Below, piece after piece: positions 14,673 through 27,887 of a DNA stretch of 44,658 nucleotides (its first letter is position 1; the number at the start of each line of letters is the position of its first letter). Made by a program: the position numbers and the translations under genes. Origin of the DNA: an uncultured bacterium (GTDB lineage Bacteria; UBP6; UBA1177); the NCBI GenBank assembly GCA_905235605.1, contig CAJOMF010000011.1, positions 5,001 to 49,658 of the forward strand, given 5' to 3'. The notes beneath the pieces are model-generated. The model ran no database searches, had not been told where the DNA came from, and saw only the letters and a program-made list of their open reading frames with translations.

Positions 14673-17600
14673 ATGAAGAAATTGTTGGCTCTTCTGGCAA
14701 TGTTGAGTTTGGTTTTCATGCTGGCCTGCGGCGGCGGTAAAAAGGAAACTCCGAAAACCGACAACGATCAGACTGAAATTTCAGATGACGATGCCGACAT
14801 AGCGGATATCGAGATATCAGACGAGGATTCCGACGATCCTCAAGAGCCCGATGAAGACACCGGCGAACCGGATGAAGATTCCGATGATTCAGATGATATC
14901 GATATATCAGATATCGAGATATCGGATCAAGACAACGATACCGACTCCGAAGAACCCGAGGCAACCGAAAACCACAAAATAACAGGAACCTACCAAATTG
15001 GTAACACTGTTTCAGGAGTTCACGCAGCACTTATCGAATGCGGCGGAACTGTTGAACTGGCTTCAGCCAATACCGATTCAGACGGAAAGTTCAGTTTTAA
15101 TGCAGACATTTCGGCTTCTAAAACATACTGCGTTAAAGCAGGTGATTTCGCAAGCTGCTTCAAGGGGATGAGCGACCATGTCGCAAATATTTCAGAAATC
15201 ACGAATGCGGCATATCTCCTTGACAAAAACTGCACAGACATCCGCAAAAGCGAAACGGCCGTCAGGGCATACGCTAAACTCGGAACCGGAGCATGGCTGG
15301 GTGAGCTTGATTATTCGCAGCTTTCGGGCATCAAGGAAGGCCTCAAACTTCTCTCTTCCTTCCTCGATACGACCGATTCAAAAACTCTCTCCGAAAAAAT
15401 CGCGGCTGACATTCAGAAAACCGACGGACGCGAGTTTTACAAGTTTTTCAACGGCTTCAAAGTGCTTTCCGACAGAAAGGAAGTCGTAATAGATGAAGCA
15501 GACACTTCAAACAATGAAATAAAATTCAATATCGAAGGCGGCAGCAACGATATCTCGGAAGGTTTCAAGATCCTCTGGATCGACATGAAACAGTCGGCTG
15601 AAGCGGCGACCCACAAGTTCAAAAGCACGGAAGCCGGCGAATACGTGATCCGCGCAAAACTCGTTTACGCAGGCGGCGGCGATCCCATCATGGGCGGAGA
15701 CCCGATAATGATTTCCGAAGATTCGCTGAGCGTACTCTATCTTCTCGAGAAACTTTCAGGAACGATCGATGTCAGTGACATGAGCAAAGATGTTTCGCAC
15801 TATATCACGAACGGGATTTATGCGGTCATTCCGAAAAACACCACGATCAAGAAAGGAAATTCCAAAGTAAATACGCTGAGTTACAAAATTTTATCAACAG
15901 GTGACGGTTCTCAGGTCTCAAAAATCGACTTTGGTCCTGACGGAACTGCTTTCACAGGCGACTCGCTCTATTTTGTTTATGAATTGGGCACAGTTTTCGG
16001 CGGCGATCCCATCATGCTTTCGGCAAAAAGAGCAAATGCCGACGGCTCAAGCGAAGTCCTTCAGTCTGCCGGAGGAGACCCGATAATGCTTGAAGCGGGC
16101 GGAGATCCGATAATGTTCTCGGCAGGCGGTGACCCCATCATGCAGATTGCACGCAGTGCAGGCGGTGACCCCATCATGATCTCGGCCGGCGGTGATCCGA
16201 TAATGATGGATGCGGGCGGTGACCCGATAATGCAGGCTGCCGGCGGAGATCCCATCATGACTAACGCGGCAGGAGACCCGATAATGTCAACTGCAGCAGG
16301 TGATCCTATCATGCTCGGAACGAGTTCAAGCGTCATGATCGCAAAGACCGGTCACTTCTCAGGATTCCTGCTAAACTCGGATTCACTTCCGGTTTCAGTT
16401 GAAACGCTCGTCAGCAGATGGTGCGACGGTTCATACTATCAGGGTTATTCACCGATAGAATTCATCAAAAAAGGTGTTCAGGAATACAAAACGGCAGGTA
16501 CTGACAAAGATGAGCTTCTTTCATATCTCACCTGTCAGAACAGGAAATTCAGTGAACTCGGAAACGACCTTTACGAGCTCATAAACAAGCAGATCGGCTT
16601 CCAGCGCAACCTCAATCTGATCGAAAACATCTACTACGTTTCGGAATTCTACAACCGCATGCTTGCAAGAAAGAATAACGGCGAAGTCGCTGCGGTGAAA
16701 AACGGGCTCGAACTCAGGTCTGCGCTCGCCTCTCTTTTCACTGCGACAACTTCCTACAACAGAAGTGCGACTCTGGCTGATCTTTTCGATTCGTCGAAGA
16801 TCCCGCTTACCTACAGCGGTGCGACTCCGGCGGACTATTCGGCTGACGCGCTGGCGGCTGTGACCGGTCTTTCCGAAGTAAACAGCAAATATGTTGCGAC
16901 CAAAAAAGAAGTTATGATTTTTGCAAACTACGTCACGACTTCTCCGAAAGGACCCGATTTCAGCGGCGTCACATCAGCTCTGACTCCCGACAAGTTCGTC
17001 TGCGCATGGTTCAACCCCGACACTGCGCCGCAGAGCTGCAGCAAGGTCTACAAGCTGAACGGCGAAGGTCACGTTGCGCTCGGCAGCACCGAAGTAAGCG
17101 TCACCGATGCAGAGAAAATTTTCGCAAAATTCTTCATGCCGATGAACAGCCGCTTGAGCAATGAAGAAAAACTCGGTCTGTTCAGAACTTACTACCTTGT
17201 TCTGAAGTATATCGGAACGGTTTTCTACGGCGGAGACAAAGTTGACAGCCTCAACAAAAAGCTGCTTGAAACGGCATATCTCGTTTTCGACGGGATCAAC
17301 CGCAACGCGAACGCAGTTTCCATCGTCGATACTTTCGACGCATCGGCAGACACGGTTCAGGTTTTTGAAAACGGCGGAATTGGAACAAAGCCTTATTTGA
17401 GCAGACTTTCAAGCCTTACAGACCTTATTTCGCTTGATGTCGCAACAGCGGCAAATGTTGAAAAAGTCCTTATAAATACAATCGGTTACGCTTACGACAA
17501 AATCACAGAGAACACTAGGACTTACTACAGTCCGGTCGGTGATCCGCTTGAAAATTCGATAATCCTCACTCCCGGCGAACTTCCGGCTGGGCTCAAGCCT

Positions 17601-20600
17601 CTCAAGGATCTCATCGGTCCGAACAATGTCGATGCTCTCGGAAACATCGTCGGAAAGATGACGGTCGTCGTCAACTCGAAGATTTCAGGCAAAACATATT
17701 CGACGCAGAAGACCTACGAATTTCTTATCAACGACAAGAGCGAAGGCGTTGAAACGAAACCGCTTCCGTCGAACCTTTTGATCCTTCTCGAAGACGCTTC
17801 GGGTCATGCGATCCCGCTTGAAAACAATCCCGGGATCATCCTCAATCCCGGTAACAAAACCTACTATCCGAATGAAGACGGTGAGATAAGAATCGAAAAT
17901 CTCGCTCCGGCTTCCTACACGATTTCCGCCTTTGCAGACGGCTACTACGCGAAAAATGTCGGCGTGAACCTTCCGGGAAATGCTACTTTAGGCGTTGAGA
18001 TCAGGCTCGATGAAGAGATCACTTCTTCCCATGAGGACGCAGATCTCACGATCAAAGTAAACATAAATACGGTTAAACATCCGGCAAAAGTCTACATCCA
18101 GATCTATGACGAAGATATGGAGCTCGTCGGGAACGAATCAGCGAAATTCAACGAAGCTTCACACGCTTACGACGATGCAACCTTTAGCATCGATTTCGGC
18201 AGATACACTCTTCTTGCCGTCGGCGAAGAGATGTACAACTACCTCGAAGCGATAACCGTAAACAGCGAAAATACGGTAAAAGAAATTACGGTTATTGCGA
18301 AAAACGCATGCGGAAACGGCATAATCGATGCTGGTGAAGAGTGCGAAACGGGTGATCTGGATTCGACAGAAATACGCTGCGGAGACGTTTTCCCGGCTTC
18401 GACGAATCCCGATAACAAAGCGGTATGCAACAGGACGACATGCGTTTACGACAAGGCTGCATGCGGCGCACCGACCTACTCCAACTGCGGCGACGGAATA
18501 ATCGATCCCGGCGAAGGCTGCGACGGCGGAAGCAAGGCATGCTCCGAAATTCTGGGTGCAAATGTAAAAGGCACAGCTCCCTGCAAAACGGACTGCTCCG
18601 ACTGGGTCATTGCGGGCAACTGCACGAAAACCACGGCTGACTGCGCCACTCTTCCCGAACACGCGATCTGGAATGACGGGATCGGCAGATTCACGCAGAC
18701 TTACAACGGCTCCGACTGGCTTCCGGCAGCAAAAAATGCGGCTTACGGTACAACACGTGAAGAATGCGTTTTCTCCTGCGACAAAGGCTACAAATGGAAC
18801 GGCGCGACTCAGCAGTGCCTTGCTGATCCGCTTTCTCTCGGCAGCATCTGTACCGGAGAGACCTCATGCTTCGACAACGGTTCGGAGGCCGAATGTCCCG
18901 CTTACGGAAAACTTTTCTTCGGCCAGGATGCTCAGTATGCTTTAGCCGGTTACTGCACGGCAAAGAGCTTCTCGCAGAAAGGAACTAACCCGCAGATGAT
19001 CGTCGTTGACGACTTCACTCACTCCGAGTGGCACAAAGTCTCCGGCGGCGCGCAGAACTGGGCTGCAGCTGAGGAATACTGCCGCACTTCGACTTACGGC
19101 GCAACGCAGCTTTACTGGAGACTGCCGAGCCCTGAAGAGCTTCTGACTATCGTTGACGCCGGCCGCGCAGACTCTCCGCTTACCTCGATTTTCAGCGCAT
19201 CCGGCAGCACTTTCTGGGCAAATGAAGACAGCTGGAACTCCGAAAACGCTTGGATGCTCGCTGCAAACGGCGCACTGGAAAGCGTTGCCAAATCGATGGG
19301 AAACGATGTTCTCTGCATCCACGTCAACGACTATGACGCACCGGCGGAACGCTTCAGCGCAGCAGATGAAACAGTCACCGACAATGTGAGCGGTCTCATC
19401 TGGCAGAAGCAGTACTCTTCATCGAAATCTTGGGCAGAAGCACTCTCCTACTGCGAAGACCTGACGACATCAGGGCATTACGACTGGAGACTTCCCAACA
19501 GAAACGAGCTTGCTTCCTTAATTGATTTTGCAAAAACTGACGAAGCTATGAGCAGTTTCCCCGGGATCGCAGCCAAAAAATTCTGGACATCGACAAGCTC
19601 GGTCACCGCAGCAACCGCAGCCTGGGCAGTCGGTTTTGCAGACGGAAGCATTTCAGCCGAAACAAAATCGGAAACGAACTACGTCCTCTGCGTAAGGAGC
19701 GAAAACGAGTGCATCGGAAACGACTGCGTTGACGCATGCAGCTTCGAGCCCTGCAGAAACATCAAAAATTCGACAGGCGTCTGCACTGCAACTGCAGGAA
19801 CTTTCATCTGCGGCTGCAAATCAAGATTCCACTGGAACAATTCAAGGTGCGAACTTGATACAGTCCTTCACTCGAACTGCGATCTCAACAGTCTGCCGAA
19901 GCACGGCCACTGGAACATCTACTCTTCGATCGACCAGACCTGCGACGACGAAGACGACTGCGACTGGTATCCGAGTCTGACCGGCCAGTACAACGAAACT
20001 CCGAACCCGAACGAATGCCGCTTTGTCTGCAACACTGACAAAGGTTATGTCTGGAACGGCGATGACTGTGTCGGAAAGACACAAATCGTCAACTGCGGTT
20101 CAGCAAATACGCTTCCTGACAACGCGCAGTGGCACGATTCGGGCATGATAGTTCAGCAGTGGGTCTGCAACGACACCGAAACTTCATGCAGCTGGGATAT
20201 CACGACTGATGCGGCATTCAGCGAAGATCCTGTTGAGAACAGATGCCGCTTCAAATGCAGCGAACACTACACCTGGCACGGAGAGAGCTGCGATGCAGAT
20301 GAGCAGCCGGCTACCTGTGAAGGACTTGCAGACAACGCTTGGTGGTGGAATACTTCGATCACCCAGACCTGGAACGGAAGCGGCTGGGAACCGTCAAAAA
20401 CCGGAAGCTACAGCAAGACCGCAGTTGACAACGAATGCGTCTTCAGATGCAACGACGGATTCTTCTGGGATGGCGAAAAGTGCGTAAGTCCGTGTTCCGG
20501 CGCAGCCGATCCCTGCAGCACCGACGCACATTCGACCGGCACCTGCACTGCAACAAGCATAGTTGACTACAAATGCGAATGCAGCGACGGCTACTACTGG

Positions 20601-22838
20601 TGGGATGGTCAGGGCTGCACCGACAAAAAGCCGCTCGCTCTGGGCAATATCTGCACTATCACCGAAGGTTGTTCCGACAACGAACGGAATATCCCCTGCC
20701 CGGAAGAGGGTGAAAATTTCTACGGTCAGCCTTCACAGTACGCGGCAAAAGGAATATGTGCCGCAAGAAACCTTTCTGTCAATGATTCAGTCGAAAATGA
20801 ACCTACTGTTTTCGATAACAATACCGGTCTTGAGTGGCAGAAGAATTTCTCTTCATCTTTCAATTCGCTGGAAACAGCTCTTGAATACTGCGAAAATCTT
20901 GAATACGGCGGTCACCGTGACTGGCGTCTGCCGACTCACTATGAAATGATGGCAGTTTTTGATTACTCTAAACAAAACCTGGCAGACGGATTTTATTATT
21001 ACGACTACTACTATTGGACTTCCAGCTTCGTATCGGATAAAAACGAAGATCCTATTTGGTCTACAAGTGAAGACGGTGCTTTGGTATGGTCATCAGGATA
21101 CCATAAATGGCTGCCTTCAAACTATACTCATTATATCGAGTATGCTATACCTGAATACAAGTTTGCATTCTGCGTCCGCGGAAACGAGCTGCCTGCAGCA
21201 GAATTTATTGTTTCTGAAATAAACGGCGATGAAGTCGTCAAAGATAGTGCAACAGGACTTATGTGGCAGAAAACATATACTATTGTTTCCTGGCAGAATG
21301 CGCTTTCATACTGCGAAAATCTGGATTATGCAGGTTTAACCGACTGGCGTCTGCCGAATACGAACGAACTTGCCTCCAACGACGATGTCTACAATCCGAC
21401 TCCGATCTTTGAGTGGGGTGAAAACTTGTGGTCTGCCGACTCTATAGGGTCGCAGGCTTATTATTGGAATCTTTCTACACTTATTCCGACATTTGACTCG
21501 ACTTACAAGGTTAATGGAGGATATCAATATACTGCAGTTGTCCGCTGTGTCCGTTCAGGTGTCTGCGGTGACGACAAGTTCTGGAACGGCTCCGAGTGCG
21601 TAAATCCGTGCAGTGCCGATTCATGCGGAGGTCCGGCTTATGAAGATGCAGTCTGCGTTCCCACGTCTTATCAGGATCATGTCTGCAAATGCGCTGACAG
21701 CGGATTTTTCTGGGACGGTTCAGCCTGCCTTGATCCGTGTGATGCCGATCCGTGCGCCGATATTCCGCACTCGACTCATGTCTGCACATCGACAGACTGG
21801 AACAAATATTCATGCGGCTGCGACGAAGGATATTTCTGGGACAGCACTCAGTGCGTGCCGATAACTTTGGGAAGAGTCTGCACTGGAAAGAACTTGTGTT
21901 CCGACAATTCAGGCGTAATAGCTTGTCCGTCACAAGGTGAAGATTTCTTCGGTCAGGACTGGCAGTATGCAAAAAAAGGCTTCTGCGCTCCGAGAGATTT
22001 CAGAGCAGAGACTGTCGAAGGTGACTCGGTTATCATTGACGGCACTTTAGAGCTTGAATGGCAGCAACTGTATTCGACGGAAGCGGATCAGCTTGACTGG
22101 TATGATGCTGTCGATTACTGCAATGATTTGGTTTATGCAGGGCATGACGACTGGAGACTTCCGTCCGTAAAGGAGTTCTTCAGCCTGAAGTATAATCCGA
22201 TCGACTGGGAGTTGGGACATGGCCGTTATTTGTGGACATCGCAGGAAAGAAGTGAAGATACTGCACTGATCGTATTTGACAGCTACTACGACAGTTACTA
22301 TTATATAAATGATACAAGCAAAGATCTTTTCTACGCAGTCCGATGTGTCCGCGGGAACACAATACCTGATGCAGATCTGCATTCTTCTACAGTTTCCTCA
22401 GGCGGCAGTAACTTTGAAATCGTCACCGATTCGACGACGCGCCTTATCTGGCAGAAGGATCCCGAGGACAGCAAAAAGAACTGGAAAAATGCTCTTGCAT
22501 ACTGCGAAAATCTGGAACACGCAGGCTTGAGCAACTGGCGGCTTCCCAACAATAACGAACTTGCATCACTGATCGACAACGACGGCAGTTCAAATTTCCC
22601 TGAAATATCGGATGCAACAGCAAGTGATTCGCGTGAGTTCTGGACATCATCTTCGCTTTATGAGGTCAGCGGCAGCGCTTTTACACTACATTCTTTCGGT
22701 ACTTGGACTATTGAAAGCAAAACCGGAAAAAATAATGTTCTCTGCGTCCACAATGACCCCTGCATGGAAGGAGAATGGTGGAACGGAAGTGAATGCTTAA
22801 CGAATCCGTGCAATGCAAATCCTTGCGGCACTGACTAA
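14673..22838 (+). CDS. Giant multidomain lipoprotein with AGGDPIM repeats and six Lcl_C domains
   Basis: A 2,721-residue predicted surface lipoprotein. The signal peptide ends ...FMLAC (Cys19), with GGAGGG before the ATG. Order: Asp/Glu-rich linker (~25-95); a regulatory-type beta domain with TDSDGKFSF (~100-190); a region with three scattered GGDPIM motifs, then a nonapeptide array (466-547); a long helical region (~560-1000); a second beta domain (~1030-1200); and two Myxococcus-type Cys repeats (CGNGIIDAGEECE from 1213, CGDGIIDPGEGCD). Then come three copies of a module: EGF-like or 'WNG/WDG' Cys-rich repeats, an 'LG..C...C.DN....CP..G..F.GQ..QYA..G.C' segment and two Lcl_C/DUF1566 domains (WRLPxxxEL). 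It ends at a TAA inside a Cys-rich repeat, and the frame stays open for 222 codons beyond it. Function is unknown; adhesion or carbohydrate binding is the natural guess. Modules are shared with the lipoprotein at 3008. Confidence 0.85.
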   Translation: MKKLLALLAMLSLVFMLACGGGKKETPKTDNDQTEISDDDADIADIEISDEDSDDPQEPDEDTGEPDEDSDDSDDIDISDIEISDQDNDTDSEEPEATENHKITGTYQIGNTVSGVHAALIECGGTVELASANTDSDGKFSFNADISASKTYCVKAGDFASCFKGMSDHVANISEITNAAYLLDKNCTDIRKSETAVRAYAKLGTGAWLGELDYSQLSGIKEGLKLLSSFLDTTDSKTLSEKIAADIQKTDGREFYKFFNGFKVLSDRKEVVIDEADTSNNEIKFNIEGGSNDISEGFKILWIDMKQSAEAATHKFKSTEAGEYVIRAKLVYAGGGDPIMGGDPIMISEDSLSVLYLLEKLSGTIDVSDMSKDVSHYITNGIYAVIPKNTTIKKGNSKVNTLSYKILSTGDGSQVSKIDFGPDGTAFTGDSLYFVYELGTVFGGDPIMLSAKRANADGSSEVLQSAGGDPIMLEAGGDPIMFSAGGDPIMQIARSAGGDPIMISAGGDPIMMDAGGDPIMQAAGGDPIMTNAAGDPIMSTAAGDPIMLGTSSSVMIAKTGHFSGFLLNSDSLPVSVETLVSRWCDGSYYQGYSPIEFIKKGVQEYKTAGTDKDELLSYLTCQNRKFSELGNDLYELINKQIGFQRNLNLIENIYYVSEFYNRMLARKNNGEVAAVKNGLELRSALASLFTATTSYNRSATLADLFDSSKIPLTYSGATPADYSADALAAVTGLSEVNSKYVATKKEVMIFANYVTTSPKGPDFSGVTSALTPDKFVCAWFNPDTAPQSCSKVYKLNGEGHVALGSTEVSVTDAEKIFAKFFMPMNSRLSNEEKLGLFRTYYLVLKYIGTVFYGGDKVDSLNKKLLETAYLVFDGINRNANAVSIVDTFDASADTVQVFENGGIGTKPYLSRLSSLTDLISLDVATAANVEKVLINTIGYAYDKITENTRTYYSPVGDPLENSIILTPGELPAGLKPLKDLIGPNNVDALGNIVGKMTVVVNSKISGKTYSTQKTYEFLINDKSEGVETKPLPSNLLILLEDASGHAIPLENNPGIILNPGNKTYYPNEDGEIRIENLAPASYTISAFADGYYAKNVGVNLPGNATLGVEIRLDEEITSSHEDADLTIKVNINTVKHPAKVYIQIYDEDMELVGNESAKFNEASHAYDDATFSIDFGRYTLLAVGEEMYNYLEAITVNSENTVKEITVIAKNACGNGIIDAGEECETGDLDSTEIRCGDVFPASTNPDNKAVCNRTTCVYDKAACGAPTYSNCGDGIIDPGEGCDGGSKACSEILGANVKGTAPCKTDCSDWVIAGNCTKTTADCATLPEHAIWNDGIGRFTQTYNGSDWLPAAKNAAYGTTREECVFSCDKGYKWNGATQQCLADPLSLGSICTGETSCFDNGSEAECPAYGKLFFGQDAQYALAGYCTAKSFSQKGTNPQMIVVDDFTHSEWHKVSGGAQNWAAAEEYCRTSTYGATQLYWRLPSPEELLTIVDAGRADSPLTSIFSASGSTFWANEDSWNSENAWMLAANGALESVAKSMGNDVLCIHVNDYDAPAERFSAADETVTDNVSGLIWQKQYSSSKSWAEALSYCEDLTTSGHYDWRLPNRNELASLIDFAKTDEAMSSFPGIAAKKFWTSTSSVTAATAAWAVGFADGSISAETKSETNYVLCVRSENECIGNDCVDACSFEPCRNIKNSTGVCTATAGTFICGCKSRFHWNNSRCELDTVLHSNCDLNSLPKHGHWNIYSSIDQTCDDEDDCDWYPSLTGQYNETPNPNECRFVCNTDKGYVWNGDDCVGKTQIVNCGSANTLPDNAQWHDSGMIVQQWVCNDTETSCSWDITTDAAFSEDPVENRCRFKCSEHYTWHGESCDADEQPATCEGLADNAWWWNTSITQTWNGSGWEPSKTGSYSKTAVDNECVFRCNDGFFWDGEKCVSPCSGAADPCSTDAHSTGTCTATSIVDYKCECSDGYYWWDGQGCTDKKPLALGNICTITEGCSDNERNIPCPEEGENFYGQPSQYAAKGICAARNLSVNDSVENEPTVFDNNTGLEWQKNFSSSFNSLETALEYCENLEYGGHRDWRLPTHYEMMAVFDYSKQNLADGFYYYDYYYWTSSFVSDKNEDPIWSTSEDGALVWSSGYHKWLPSNYTHYIEYAIPEYKFAFCVRGNELPAAEFIVSEINGDEVVKDSATGLMWQKTYTIVSWQNALSYCENLDYAGLTDWRLPNTNELASNDDVYNPTPIFEWGENLWSADSIGSQAYYWNLSTLIPTFDSTYKVNGGYQYTAVVRCVRSGVCGDDKFWNGSECVNPCSADSCGGPAYEDAVCVPTSYQDHVCKCADSGFFWDGSACLDPCDADPCADIPHSTHVCTSTDWNKYSCGCDEGYFWDSTQCVPITLGRVCTGKNLCSDNSGVIACPSQGEDFFGQDWQYAKKGFCAPRDFRAETVEGDSVIIDGTLELEWQQLYSTEADQLDWYDAVDYCNDLVYAGHDDWRLPSVKEFFSLKYNPIDWELGHGRYLWTSQERSEDTALIVFDSYYDSYYYINDTSKDLFYAVRCVRGNTIPDADLHSSTVSSGGSNFEIVTDSTTRLIWQKDPEDSKKNWKNALAYCENLEHAGLSNWRLPNNNELASLIDNDGSSNFPEISDATASDSREFWTSSSLYEVSGSAFTLHSFGTWTIESKTGKNNVLCVHNDPCMEGEWWNGSECLTNPCNANPCGTD
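16068..16313 (+). repeat. Nine-copy AGGDPIMxx nonapeptide array (27-bp DNA repeat)
   Basis: Nine consecutive units with core A-G/A-G-D-P-I-M. Seven are exactly nine residues to the next, one is stretched to twelve by IARS, and the last runs into LGT. Three further GGDPIM copies stand outside the array at 15672-15710 (two) and about 15998-16015. The spacing residues vary (LE, FS, IS, MD, QA, TN, ST) while GDPIM is invariant in all twelve. The third codon positions of DPIM vary among copies, so this is not a very recent duplication. Confidence 0.95.
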
Positions 22839-23507
22839 TCGACATGCACCCCGAAAACTTCCGTAAACTACGAATGCGGATGCAAGAATGAAGGATATTT
22901 CTGGGACGATCATGAATCTCACTGCATAAATCCTTGTTACCGCTGCGGTCAGCATTCGACCGGCGAATGCACCGCAACAGCATTGGATAAATATGTGTGC
23001 AGCTGCGAAGAAGGATACGCCGGGATAAATTCTCCATGCGTTGCATCCTCATACAGTTTTGAAGATGTAAACTCTTCAACTTATTCGTCAAATTTCATCT
23101 ATATACAATTTAATGAAGGCGGTTCTTCGAATCAATGGGCACAAAGGTCAGCATTTGGAGGATACTCGGGAGCTTACGCATTATGTTCCAACAGCATGTT
23201 TTACAACTCAAATTCAACCATGATTATACACATAAATATGCCGGCTGACGGAACAGTTTCCTTTTATCTGAAAGGAACATGCGAAGAACACGACGAGTTG
23301 AATGTTTACTATGACGGCGAGAACTGGATAAGCAGCAGAGATTTCTATACAGGCAGCAAAATAACAGGATGGTCGAGCTGGACCAGTCAAAGTGTTGATT
23401 TGTCTGCCGGAAATCATACTTTGACTTTCAATTACAGAAAAGACAATGAAACAAACGGCGGCGATGACAGATTCTGCATCGACGACCTTAGCCTGAGTTT
23501 TGATTAG
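22839..23507 (+). CDS. C-terminal part of the giant lipoprotein, cut off by an in-frame TAA
   Basis: This stretch is in the same frame as the giant lipoprotein and continues its Cys-rich repeat without a break: ...NPCGTD, stop, STCTPKTSVNYECGC..., matching other units such as DPCADIPHSTHVCTST...YSCGC. Two more EGF-like repeats follow, then a ~150-residue beta-rich domain (SYSFEDVNSS..., GTVSFYLKGTC, GNHTLTFNYRKD, DRFCIDDLSLSFD) resembling a MAM or jelly-roll-like extracellular domain. The first possible internal start, TTG 22983, has no ribosome site, so it is unlikely to be an independent gene. It is best read as the 3' end of a nonsense-mutated gene, a read-through product, or the result of a base-call error. 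Confidence 0.75.
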   Translation, partial: STCTPKTSVNYECGCKNEGYFWDDHESHCINPCYRCGQHSTGECTATALDKYVCSCEEGYAGINSPCVASSYSFEDVNSSTYSSNFIYIQFNEGGSSNQWAQRSAFGGYSGAYALCSNSMFYNSNSTMIIHINMPADGTVSFYLKGTCEEHDELNVYYDGENWISSRDFYTGSKITGWSSWTSQSVDLSAGNHTLTFNYRKDNETNGGDDRFCIDDLSLSFD

Positions 23508-23562
23508 GATCCAGGGTGTGACTATAAGAGCTTAAGGAACGCGTCCCTTCCTGCAATTCCTG

Positions 23563-24869: not shown

Positions 24870-27800
24870 TTAAATTCCCCCTTCTTCTTTGGAAATTTCT
24901 TCGCTTGTGAGAGTTTCCAGATAAAAGTCTTTAAGTTTCATGCCGGCCTCGCGCTCCATTTTGTGAAGAAGTTCTGCCGGAGTAAGTTCAAGCTCGGGTG
25001 CCACGAGCGGATAAAATCTGATTTTTCCGCCGGTACATATTCCGAGGAAGTTCTTGTCCCTTGCAAAAATCAGGCATCCCGGCTCTTTTTCGGTCGAAAT
25101 AGTGAGGAAGAGCCTGTGTTCAGGCACATTCCAGATCCTCACGCCGTTATGAGCAGCGACGGTTGCCGCAAAAGTCCCGTCGAAAGAGACTGCGATCTTA
25201 TCCGACGGATCAAATTTCCCGCTGAAATCCATGATCGAATTGTCATAAGTGTCGATGTGGCTGAGGATCCCTTTGTCAAAACCCGCCAAAAGAGTCGAAT
25301 CCGGCATAAATCCAAGGGAAACCGCCTTTCTTCCTTCGATTTTCACTTCATTCAAAACTGAAAAACCGGGTACTGCAAAAATCGTTATCGTGCTGCCGCA
25401 GAGTGCCGCCAGTTTTTTGCCGCCGGGCGAAAATACTGGTCTCACAGCGCCGTTCCGCACACATCTGCTGCTTTTGACTTCGTCTTTATCTAGAGAAACA
25501 AGATGGATCCCGCTGTCTCCCATGACTGCTGCGTGGTCGCTGTCAGGCGAGATATCAACCGACCGGATCTCTTCTTTAAGCTCAATATCCTTCTCTCCCG
25601 CATTTTCCCTGTCGTAAAGCCTGAGTACCGCTCCTTTTCCCGCAACCGCGGCATATCTTCCGTCTGAAGATACAGCAGCGTCTGTCACTTGAAATTTTTC
25701 TTCATGCTCGAACAGGATCCCGTCATTTTTTGATACAATCGAAATTTTGCTGCCGCTTAAAGCAAAAATCGATCCCAAACCTTTTAAGAATGCGGCTTTT
25801 CTGACATCATCCGACGCTATATCGAAGAGCTGCGTCACTTGCCTGCCATGCCTTTTCCAGACACGAAGAAGTCCGTCCTCTCCCGCCGAAACGATTTTGT
25901 CATCACCCGCAAAAAATGCCGCGCGGACTGCAGCGCCGTGACCGTCTATAACAAAAAGCGGGGCAAGTTTTCTGGTTTCCCAGACAACGATCTTCCCCTC
26001 TTTTGAAGCGGTCGCGAAATAGGCCGAATCTTTTTGGAAGTTTATATCCAGAAGTGGAGAAGTCCTGAACGAAAGTGTGTTTACGAGCTCTTTCGTTTCC
26101 ATTGAAAAAACGGCTGTCCTGCCGCTTTCAGTTCCTGCGAGAAGAATTTTTCCGTCAGGTGAAAGGGCAAAAGACGAAATTTTGTCGTTTTCTTTTTGAT
26201 ACCATTTTGAAAACAGGTCTGCAAATTCGGCATGACTGCCGCCAAACGTCCTTCCAACAGAGGTTTCAGCGGTTTTTGCCTGAATATCTATAACGAAATT
26301 TCTGTCTTCCGAAAGAGAAACGGAGAGTTTTTTGTCGTCATCGGAAAAACCGAATCTCACGACTCTGCCTTCGAGATCGAATTTGTATATTTCGGTAAGT
26401 GCCGGAAAGTTGAAAAGAGTCACCGTTCCGTTGTCACAGCCTGTCGCAACGGTTTTCTCGTCGTGTGAAACTGCGGCGGATGTCACTTTGCAGCCTATCG
26501 GAATGTCGCGCTCGAAAGTCGCTCCGCGGTGAAAACTCTTTATGTAGAACTTTGAAGCGGCGCTGGAAAGCATATCTTCGGGATCTCCCGAATGAGCCGA
26601 AAATCCGGCACTGTACTCCGGACTTTTTTTGTTGAGCGGATTGTAATACATCGCAGCAGCCGCATAAATCCTGGATGCAATGTAGCTTTTTTCGCTGTCG
26701 AGTTTGTTCGATTTTTCACTGAAAGCCTGCGCCGTGCGGTAGTTTGCCGTTATTTTCCCGTGTTCTGCTTCCCGCCTTGCAATATTCATTCTGTGGAAAG
26801 AAACCGCGATTTGCAGTACCGCGATGAAAGTTATCACAAAAATGACGACTCCTGCGGTGAAAGCCGCTTTATGCCGGGCTGCAATGAATTTCAGACTTTC
26901 AAAAACCGAATAGCGGTAAACCCTGACTTTTCTGCCCGACATATACGCTGAAAGGTCGTCGATCATCTCCCCGACCGAAGCGTAACGGTCTTCTTTATTC
27001 TTTGAGAGTGCCTTTTCAGCGACTGCCGCAAGTTCCGGCGGGATCTCTTTATCCCTTTCGACAGCGCTTTCGATATCCTCGTTGAGGACTTTCTGGAGTA
27101 TTTCGTCTGTCGTCCTCCCTGTAAACGGCGTCCTGCCTGTCAGGATCTGGTAAAGTATCGCTCCCAGCGAGTAGATATCGGAAATTTCGTCTATCTCGCC
27201 GATATTGCCCTCGGCCTGTTCCGGAGGCATGTAGGAAGGTGTCCCTATCGCCTGTCCGACAACGGTTTTTCCGACATCCTCATCCTCGTGGCGCACAAAT
27301 ACCGTTTCAGCAGAACCTTTGATTTTTGCAAGCCCCCAGTCAAGCACGACTGTTTCGCCGAACTCACCGATCATCACGTTTGAAGGTTTGAGGTCACGGT
27401 TTATGACTCCTTTGCTGTGGGCATAAGCGACAGCGTTGCAGACATTGTAAAAATGAGGAAGAAGCTCAAGCCTTTCCTGCACACTGCGGCATTTCCTTAT
27501 CGCAGTCAGCAGAGTTGTTCCTTTGACCAGGCGCATTGTGTAGTAGAACGAGCCGTTTGAATGACAGCCGATTTCGTAAACGGGCACGATCGACGGATGT
27601 TCCAGCCTTCCCGTTACCCTCGCTTCGCGCAGAAAGCGGTTCCTTATTGCCGTAGTTTGCGGATCATCATCTCTGGAAGGAGCTTTCGAGATATCCGAAA
27701 GGAGCTCTTTCATGGCGATTTTTCTGCCGACATGTCTGTCCTCAACGACAAGGATCCTTCCTGAACCGCCGCGGGCGAGCTCCTCGACGATTTCGTATCT

Positions 27801-27887
27801 GCCCGGCGTTTCTTCAGTCACCGTTTTAAGTTTTTCCGGCTCTGCTTCGCCGCTTTCCACAAGAAAATCAACGGTTTTATCGCTCAT
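24870..27887 (-). CDS. Membrane Ser/Thr protein kinase with WD40-repeat sensor domain
   Basis: A 1,005-residue eukaryotic-like kinase. Gly loop ARGGSG at 38-43, ATP-binding Lys60 (AMKE), and Glu88 as the likely alpha-C partner. The catalytic loop is INRDLKPSN (162-170), with Asn instead of His in HRD. The metal site is DWG (183-185) and the activation segment ends GTPSYMPPEQ. A single membrane segment (~341-363) separates it from a C-terminal region (~450-960) of WD40-like repeats (IVVWETRKL, LLRVWKRHG, GVRIWNV), probably extracytoplasmic. It may couple an envelope signal to phosphorylation; the FHA protein at 446 is a type of protein that could read such marks, but no link is shown. Its ATG overlaps the recC stop by 4 bp, so it is translationally coupled to recC. 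Confidence 0.88.
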   Translation of the reverse strand: MSDKTVDFLVESGEAEPEKLKTVTEETPGRYEIVEELARGGSGRILVVEDRHVGRKIAMKELLSDISKAPSRDDDPQTTAIRNRFLREARVTGRLEHPSIVPVYEIGCHSNGSFYYTMRLVKGTTLLTAIRKCRSVQERLELLPHFYNVCNAVAYAHSKGVINRDLKPSNVMIGEFGETVVLDWGLAKIKGSAETVFVRHEDEDVGKTVVGQAIGTPSYMPPEQAEGNIGEIDEISDIYSLGAILYQILTGRTPFTGRTTDEILQKVLNEDIESAVERDKEIPPELAAVAEKALSKNKEDRYASVGEMIDDLSAYMSGRKVRVYRYSVFESLKFIAARHKAAFTAGVVIFVITFIAVLQIAVSFHRMNIARREAEHGKITANYRTAQAFSEKSNKLDSEKSYIASRIYAAAAMYYNPLNKKSPEYSAGFSAHSGDPEDMLSSAASKFYIKSFHRGATFERDIPIGCKVTSAAVSHDEKTVATGCDNGTVTLFNFPALTEIYKFDLEGRVVRFGFSDDDKKLSVSLSEDRNFVIDIQAKTAETSVGRTFGGSHAEFADLFSKWYQKENDKISSFALSPDGKILLAGTESGRTAVFSMETKELVNTLSFRTSPLLDINFQKDSAYFATASKEGKIVVWETRKLAPLFVIDGHGAAVRAAFFAGDDKIVSAGEDGLLRVWKRHGRQVTQLFDIASDDVRKAAFLKGLGSIFALSGSKISIVSKNDGILFEHEEKFQVTDAAVSSDGRYAAVAGKGAVLRLYDRENAGEKDIELKEEIRSVDISPDSDHAAVMGDSGIHLVSLDKDEVKSSRCVRNGAVRPVFSPGGKKLAALCGSTITIFAVPGFSVLNEVKIEGRKAVSLGFMPDSTLLAGFDKGILSHIDTYDNSIMDFSGKFDPSDKIAVSFDGTFAATVAAHNGVRIWNVPEHRLFLTISTEKEPGCLIFARDKNFLGICTGGKIRFYPLVAPELELTPAELLHKMEREAGMKLKDFYLETLTSEEISKEEGGI

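Follow-up and report, generated by a model that had tools for sequence, protein, structure and literature searches.

The pentapeptide GDPIM, found in twelve copies in one reading frame of the window (the whole 44,658-nucleotide stretch of DNA that was analysed, from an uncultured bacterium of the candidate phylum UBP6), recurs almost unchanged across unrelated, predicted surface proteins, which suggests an undescribed recognition tag. We consider the chances about even that xGDPIM, with x at position -1, is a multivalent peptide tag, which secreted lipoproteins carry in loops or as their tail and which a single trans-acting factor in each lineage recognises by its sequence. Almost nothing has been known so far about the surface biology of this uncultured UBP6 gut and rumen lineage, and no description of GDPIM was found in the open literature searched. 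A near-exact motif repeated hundreds of times, with its neighbouring residue switched in step, points strongly to a specific molecular partner. Once found, this partner would reveal a new system of surface attachment, modification or assembly, and would offer a peptide handle on organisms that cannot be grown.

The window copies lie in a giant putative lipoprotein whose layout comprises a lipoprotein-like signal, an acidic linker, MG/FN3-like and ZU5-like domains that carry the arrays, as well as EGF-like domains and six Lcl_C domains. The features are as follows:

14673..22838, + strand: host gene of a giant putative lipoprotein (MKKLLALLAMLSLVFMLACGGGKKE...), from sequence and domain calls
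15516..15740, + strand: MG/FN3-like beta-sandwich with GDPIM site 1 in its last hairpin loop (KLVY...ISEDS), low-confidence model
15678..15710, + strand: GDPIM site 1, two copies, period 6
15750..16397, + strand: ZU5-like domain with sites 2 and 3 inserted, from a low-confidence model, an FxPxGxxF motif and the HFS strand
16002..16016, + strand: GDPIM site 2, single copy
16074..16313, + strand: GDPIM site 3, nine copies, 9 residues apart except for one interval of 12
16353..16361, + strand: His-Phe-Ser (HF|S) in the last ZU5-type strand pair, putative autoproteolysis position as in PIDD/CARD8-type ZU5 domains

The twelve exact copies start at 15678, 15696, 16002, 16074, 16101, 16128, 16164, 16191, 16218, 16245, 16272 and 16299. 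All share one frame of the ORF 14673-22838 (+), where they span residues 336-547 (M1 at 14673), and 0 matches to the degenerate GDPIM DNA pattern were expected from 100 dinucleotide shuffles of the window. The preliminary description had claimed twelve copies of a nonapeptide AGGDPIMxx with an invariant GDPIM and a strict nine-residue period. The twelve exact copies and their invariance were borne out. The flanking label proved loose, as the triplet that ends with the motif's own G is AGG in seven copies only (AAG in two, and GGG, MGG and FGG in the first three); ten copies have G before GDPIM and two have A. The strict period was not upheld: the copies are grouped 2 + 1 + 9, with intervals of 6, 102, 24, 9, 9, 12, 9, 9, 9, 9 and 9 residues (9 in only 7 of 11), and related loops have other periods. 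Codons differ between the copies (GAT/GAC, CCC/CCG/CCT, ATC/ATA and GGA/GGC/GGT), so that the protein sequence is conserved and not the DNA, pointing to selection at the protein level. A chance origin and a DNA-level repeat were ruled out by the expected count, this codon diversity and the reversed-pattern controls given below. In 15678-16313 the choice of Pro codon goes with that of Ile codon, every CCG being paired with ATA, and CCC and CCT with ATC; this linkage is no general rule among relatives.

The host ORF ends at a TAA (22836-22838) inside an EGF-like repeat, which is either a nonsense mutation or an assembly error. The frame stays open to 23509, about 220 codons more, and the stretch 22836-23509 (+) encodes additional EGF-like units and a beta-rich domain at the C-terminus; the ORF at 22983-23507 is its 3' part.

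The degenerate pattern was used to survey 28 genomes of the phylum, with order and family placement taken from record titles and kinship labels. The window's own genome has 44 GDPIM copies on six contigs. In the window's order GDPIM was present in 24 of 25 genomes, with 3 to 111 copies each, and in the sister family in 0 of 3. The reversed pattern gave zero matches in every surveyed genome set except one, which gave a single match. The motif, being present in many proteins, is thus not filler confined to one protein, a possibility that the preliminary description had considered. A collection-wide contig scan, made with the 9-residue-spaced pattern only, returned at least about 80 loci, and the true spread may be wider. 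Among the matches listed, record titles place related array contigs in UBP6 and in ruminant or gut samples; some are titled Spirochaetales, yet have array proteins of the UBP6 type. GDPIM was additionally found in the family to which a Sphaerochaetaceae locus belongs (8 of 139 genomes), and the sole match among 392 genomes across the wider spirochaete phylum was the query genome. These spirochaete proteins, of about 120 aa, are predicted to be secreted or lipoproteins, and the array forms their C-terminus, usually ending exactly at GDPIM. Six of them (L032, L036, L041, L072, L074 and L076) consist of a signal peptide, mostly with a lipobox, six or seven GDPIM copies and little else, and terminate at the Met of GDPIM. 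No GDPIM array was found in viral contigs and plasmid matches were weak RTX-type alignments only, so a phage or plasmid origin was rejected. L140 and L141 have a single match each, in what is probably a chance frame.

Most arrays occur in lipoproteins whose N-terminal part contains a ZU5 domain (PF00791), which scored over the curated cut-off in L060, L101, L037 and L080; the other hosts include alpha-2-macroglobulins, one amylase and one transglutaminase-like protein. In two alpha-2-macroglobulin-like proteins (L143 and L151), a loop that precedes the MG2 domain holds AGDPIM or SGDPIMSGDPIM. The hosts (ZU5, giant, alpha-2-macroglobulin, amylase, transglutaminase-like and the short spirochaete lipoproteins) are non-homologous, and their signal sequences and domain types suggest a surface location.

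For the ZU5 family (53 paralogues), AlphaFold predicted a confident ZU5 core (pLDDT 82-95). Comparison of this model with the PDB gave ankyrin ZU5 domains at Z 13 (127-143 residues, rmsd 2.3-3.2) and GAIN domains at Z about 10, supporting a predicted ZU5/GAIN fold for the domain in which most arrays lie. The array is inserted ahead of the last two ZU5 strands, which bear H-F-S/T: in 90 of the 119 arrays that precede an H[FY][ST] motif, the last GDPIM stands exactly four residues before its His. H191 and F192 are invariant in the 53 sequences, and strands 184-191 and 194-200 flank the motif. An H-[F/L]-[S/T] signature, as used for ZU5/GAIN autoproteolysis, is thus located at the kink of the last two strands, and the window has its HFS at the position listed above. 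PIDD cleaves itself at HF|S (PMC3210808), and self-processing of ZU5 domains has been suggested in surface proteins of bacteria (PMC3482391); the HF|S/T near the arrays is named here a putative autoproteolysis site. GDPIM hosts share PF00791, the fold and HF[S/T] with the autoproteolytic ZU5/GAIN domains of PIDD, CARD8/NLRP1, UNC5b, adhesion GPCRs and bacterial ZU5 proteins (PMC3482391), but differ from them in having an array inserted right before the putative HF[S/T] cleavage strand.

The window protein is a member of a second, giant family with the same array arrangement; weak fold evidence and a motif mark its domain as ZU5-like. The model of this domain has a mean pLDDT of 44, and ZU5 chains (ankyrin ZU5) were its top PDB comparison, at only Z 5. 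The ZU5 profile aligns to it over only 10 columns, covering just the FxPxGxxF motif, and Pfam PF00791 makes no call on the window protein. At site 1, orthologues carry 0-9 GDPIM copies in the same beta-sandwich loop.

The motif itself is nearly fixed. In a first locus set, 744 GDPIM copies in 96 proteins were accompanied by just two one-mismatch variants within arrays; in an enlarged set of 145 non-redundant arrays, 988 copies were exact and the same spans held 30 variants (up to 2 mismatches). Replacement of Ile by Val or Leu and of Asp by Asn or Glu is almost never seen in arrays, and Met is likewise nearly constant. Codon usage in the first locus set is mixed, with GGA/GGC/GGT 273/265/191 for Gly, GAT/GAC 469/275 for Asp and ATC/ATA/ATT 418/215/111 for Ile. 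The spacing of copies is mostly 9 residues, and also 6, 10, 11, 12, 13, 15, 17, 18 and 24. In sister genera, the equivalent site of the same domain is filled by hexapeptides only, (AGDPIM)n, (SGDPIM)n or (QGDPIM)n; period 10 occurs in one genome, and intervals of 9, 13 and 18 residues occur in the spirochaetes.

The residue at -1 is specific to the lineage and concordant within a genome over unlinked, non-homologous genes, such that ZU5 proteins, giant proteins and alpha-2-macroglobulins switch it together. It is Gln in f2 (31 of 31 copies, 6 loci), Ser in f1 g2-g4 (53/53 copies, 13 loci), Ala in f3 (56/60) and Leu or Met in G033 (42/46). Both codon families, TCN and AGY, encode this Ser, so that copying of DNA is an unlikely cause. 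Against the tag reading, G000 mixes G and A at this position; in the window's own genome, Ala precedes the motif in arrays outside the window, whereas the window protein has mostly Gly. Within-genome agreement of loci was 0.80, whereas 5,000 shuffles averaged 0.26 and reached at most 0.48; independence is overstated in this test, since many loci are paralogues.

Short tags that recur on secreted proteins as acceptor or docking sites include glycosylation sequons, sortase-type signals and dockerins. To our knowledge, no system of this kind has GDPIM as its motif. GDPIM resembles these tags in being short, in occurring on many unrelated secreted proteins and in the single reading machinery proposed here; it differs in being tandem, in lying inside loops and in its lineage-specific preceding residue. 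According to the proposed mechanism, xGDPIM would be displayed in many copies on surface loops, or as a tail, of secreted lipoproteins, and a reader dedicated to each lineage, either a surface receptor or scaffold or a modifying enzyme, would bind or modify it and co-evolve with the -1 residue. Should HF|S/T undergo the self-cleavage known from PIDD/CARD8-type ZU5 domains, the array would become the C-terminal tail of the membrane-anchored half, matching the layout that the spirochaete proteins have outright. We infer reading in trans, multivalency as a function and autoproteolysis in GDPIM proteins. The wider proposal, an undescribed lineage-wide tagging system with one reader or modifier per lineage, co-evolution of the -1 residue and passage of the motif between phyla of the gut habitat, is put forward more tentatively, at somewhat less than even chances.

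A reader was not found among neighbour genes, nor in the transglutaminase-like candidate followed over 28 genomes. No gene family recurs widely beside array genes (none adjoins more than 7 array loci), and the spirochaete array genes have no shared neighbourhood. The transglutaminase-like GDPIM protein was rejected as a universal partner, being present in 6 of 28 genomes only; in G015 (84% complete) it holds all three GDPIM copies found. The sole GDPIM-negative genome of the order is G022, which belongs to the window's genus, is 97% complete and has 0 copies. The giant, window-type family was not detected in it, and its single remaining ZU5 lipoprotein, L132 (G022:C47), has an unrelated insert and GHLGS in place of GHF[ST]. 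G022 looks like the loss of a system, although most host proteins are gone too; that the tag was not lost alone counts against the tag reading.

It also counts against the tag reading that lineage-wide switching of the -1 residue could come from self-association of arrays. The main rival is therefore a homotypic one, in which arrays on different proteins bind one another into a cross-linked surface matrix, so that all arrays of one cell need to match. Agreement at -1 over unlinked genes would be accounted for without a separate reader, as would multivalency and the spread of the motif to new hosts. However, self-assembly normally tolerates conservative swaps, and Ile, Asp and Met are almost constant here; mixed spacings of 6, 9, 10, 13 and 18 fit poorly with in-register stacking, and AlphaFold, run on monomers only, showed no regular structure. 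We regard this explanation as unlikely.

Slightly less likely still is a structural repeat, a beta-roll or beta-solenoid that might depend on Ca2+ as RTX repeats do, with Ile and Met inside and Gly-Asp-Pro at the turns. Many GDPIM arrays share with RTX the period 9, the richness in Gly and Asp and, when aligned on Asp, Asp at position 6 and a hydrophobic residue at 8. RTX calcium-binding proteins were the best weak matches (E 1e-7); the PDB sequence search gave weak composition matches to RTX and ankyrin repeats, with RTX at E 0.001. The RTX consensus GGxGxDxUx has Gly at positions 1, 2 and 4 (PMC2174480). In the same alignment of GDPIM, Gly is found at these positions in only 34, 59 and 189 of 744 copies (about 5, 8 and 25%), Pro stands at 7, Ile-Met is invariant and arrays with periods 6, 10, 13 and 18 occur. 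PF00353 gave no match at E up to 1 for the whole window protein or up to 10 for residues 282-586. By sequence, then, the GDPIM repeat appears not to be RTX. No Pfam or NCBIfam profile exceeded its cut-off over the array (PGDYG and BQ00720 stayed below), so the earlier statement that the repeat matches no known family stands. The suggested solenoid or roll of strict nine-residue period does not: homologous loops have period 6 or 10 and irregular gaps. Array pLDDT was about 23-37 in the window protein, modelled as an ion- and partner-free monomer with no positive control for repeats, and 29-68, mostly below 55, in the 53-sequence ZU5 family, in ion-free (hence Ca2+-free) monomer models likewise lacking that control; no roll was seen. 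Spacings of 6-24 residues together with this low confidence make a fixed-rung solenoid unlikely. Near-exact copies, indifference to spacing and host, and co-evolution of the -1 residue are better fitted by a sequence-specific reader than by a structural repeat.

A labile or self-cleaving site, at which the Asp-Pro bond would break spontaneously or autocatalytically and shed peptides or domains, is very improbable. Gly-Asp-Pro is invariant, as this explanation would have it, and is shared with the GDPH of VWD domains, which cleaves itself (PMC10880436); in RTX self-processing modules, too, an Asp-Pro bond is reported to be processed (PMC7078468). Known cases, however, require a folded domain, and VWD also His after Pro; here the sequence is GDPI, Ile-Met follows invariantly in many copies per protein, the array is predicted to be unstructured and no VWD domain was matched by Pfam in GDPIM proteins. 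Moreover, acid lability alone needs no Ile, no Met and no lineage-specific -1 residue. A passive flexible linker, whose copies would be alike through recent tandem duplication and gene conversion, agrees with the tandem arrangement and the variable copy number of orthologues at site 1, but is hardly tenable, because such processes would homogenise codons too, and these are strongly diversified, with amino acids almost unchanged and both codon families used for Ser at -1.

Elsewhere in the window, 3008-5266 (+) encodes another large Lcl_C-domain protein, without GDPIM, and 24873-27887 (-) encodes a 1005-aa fusion of a protein kinase with a WD40-type beta-propeller.
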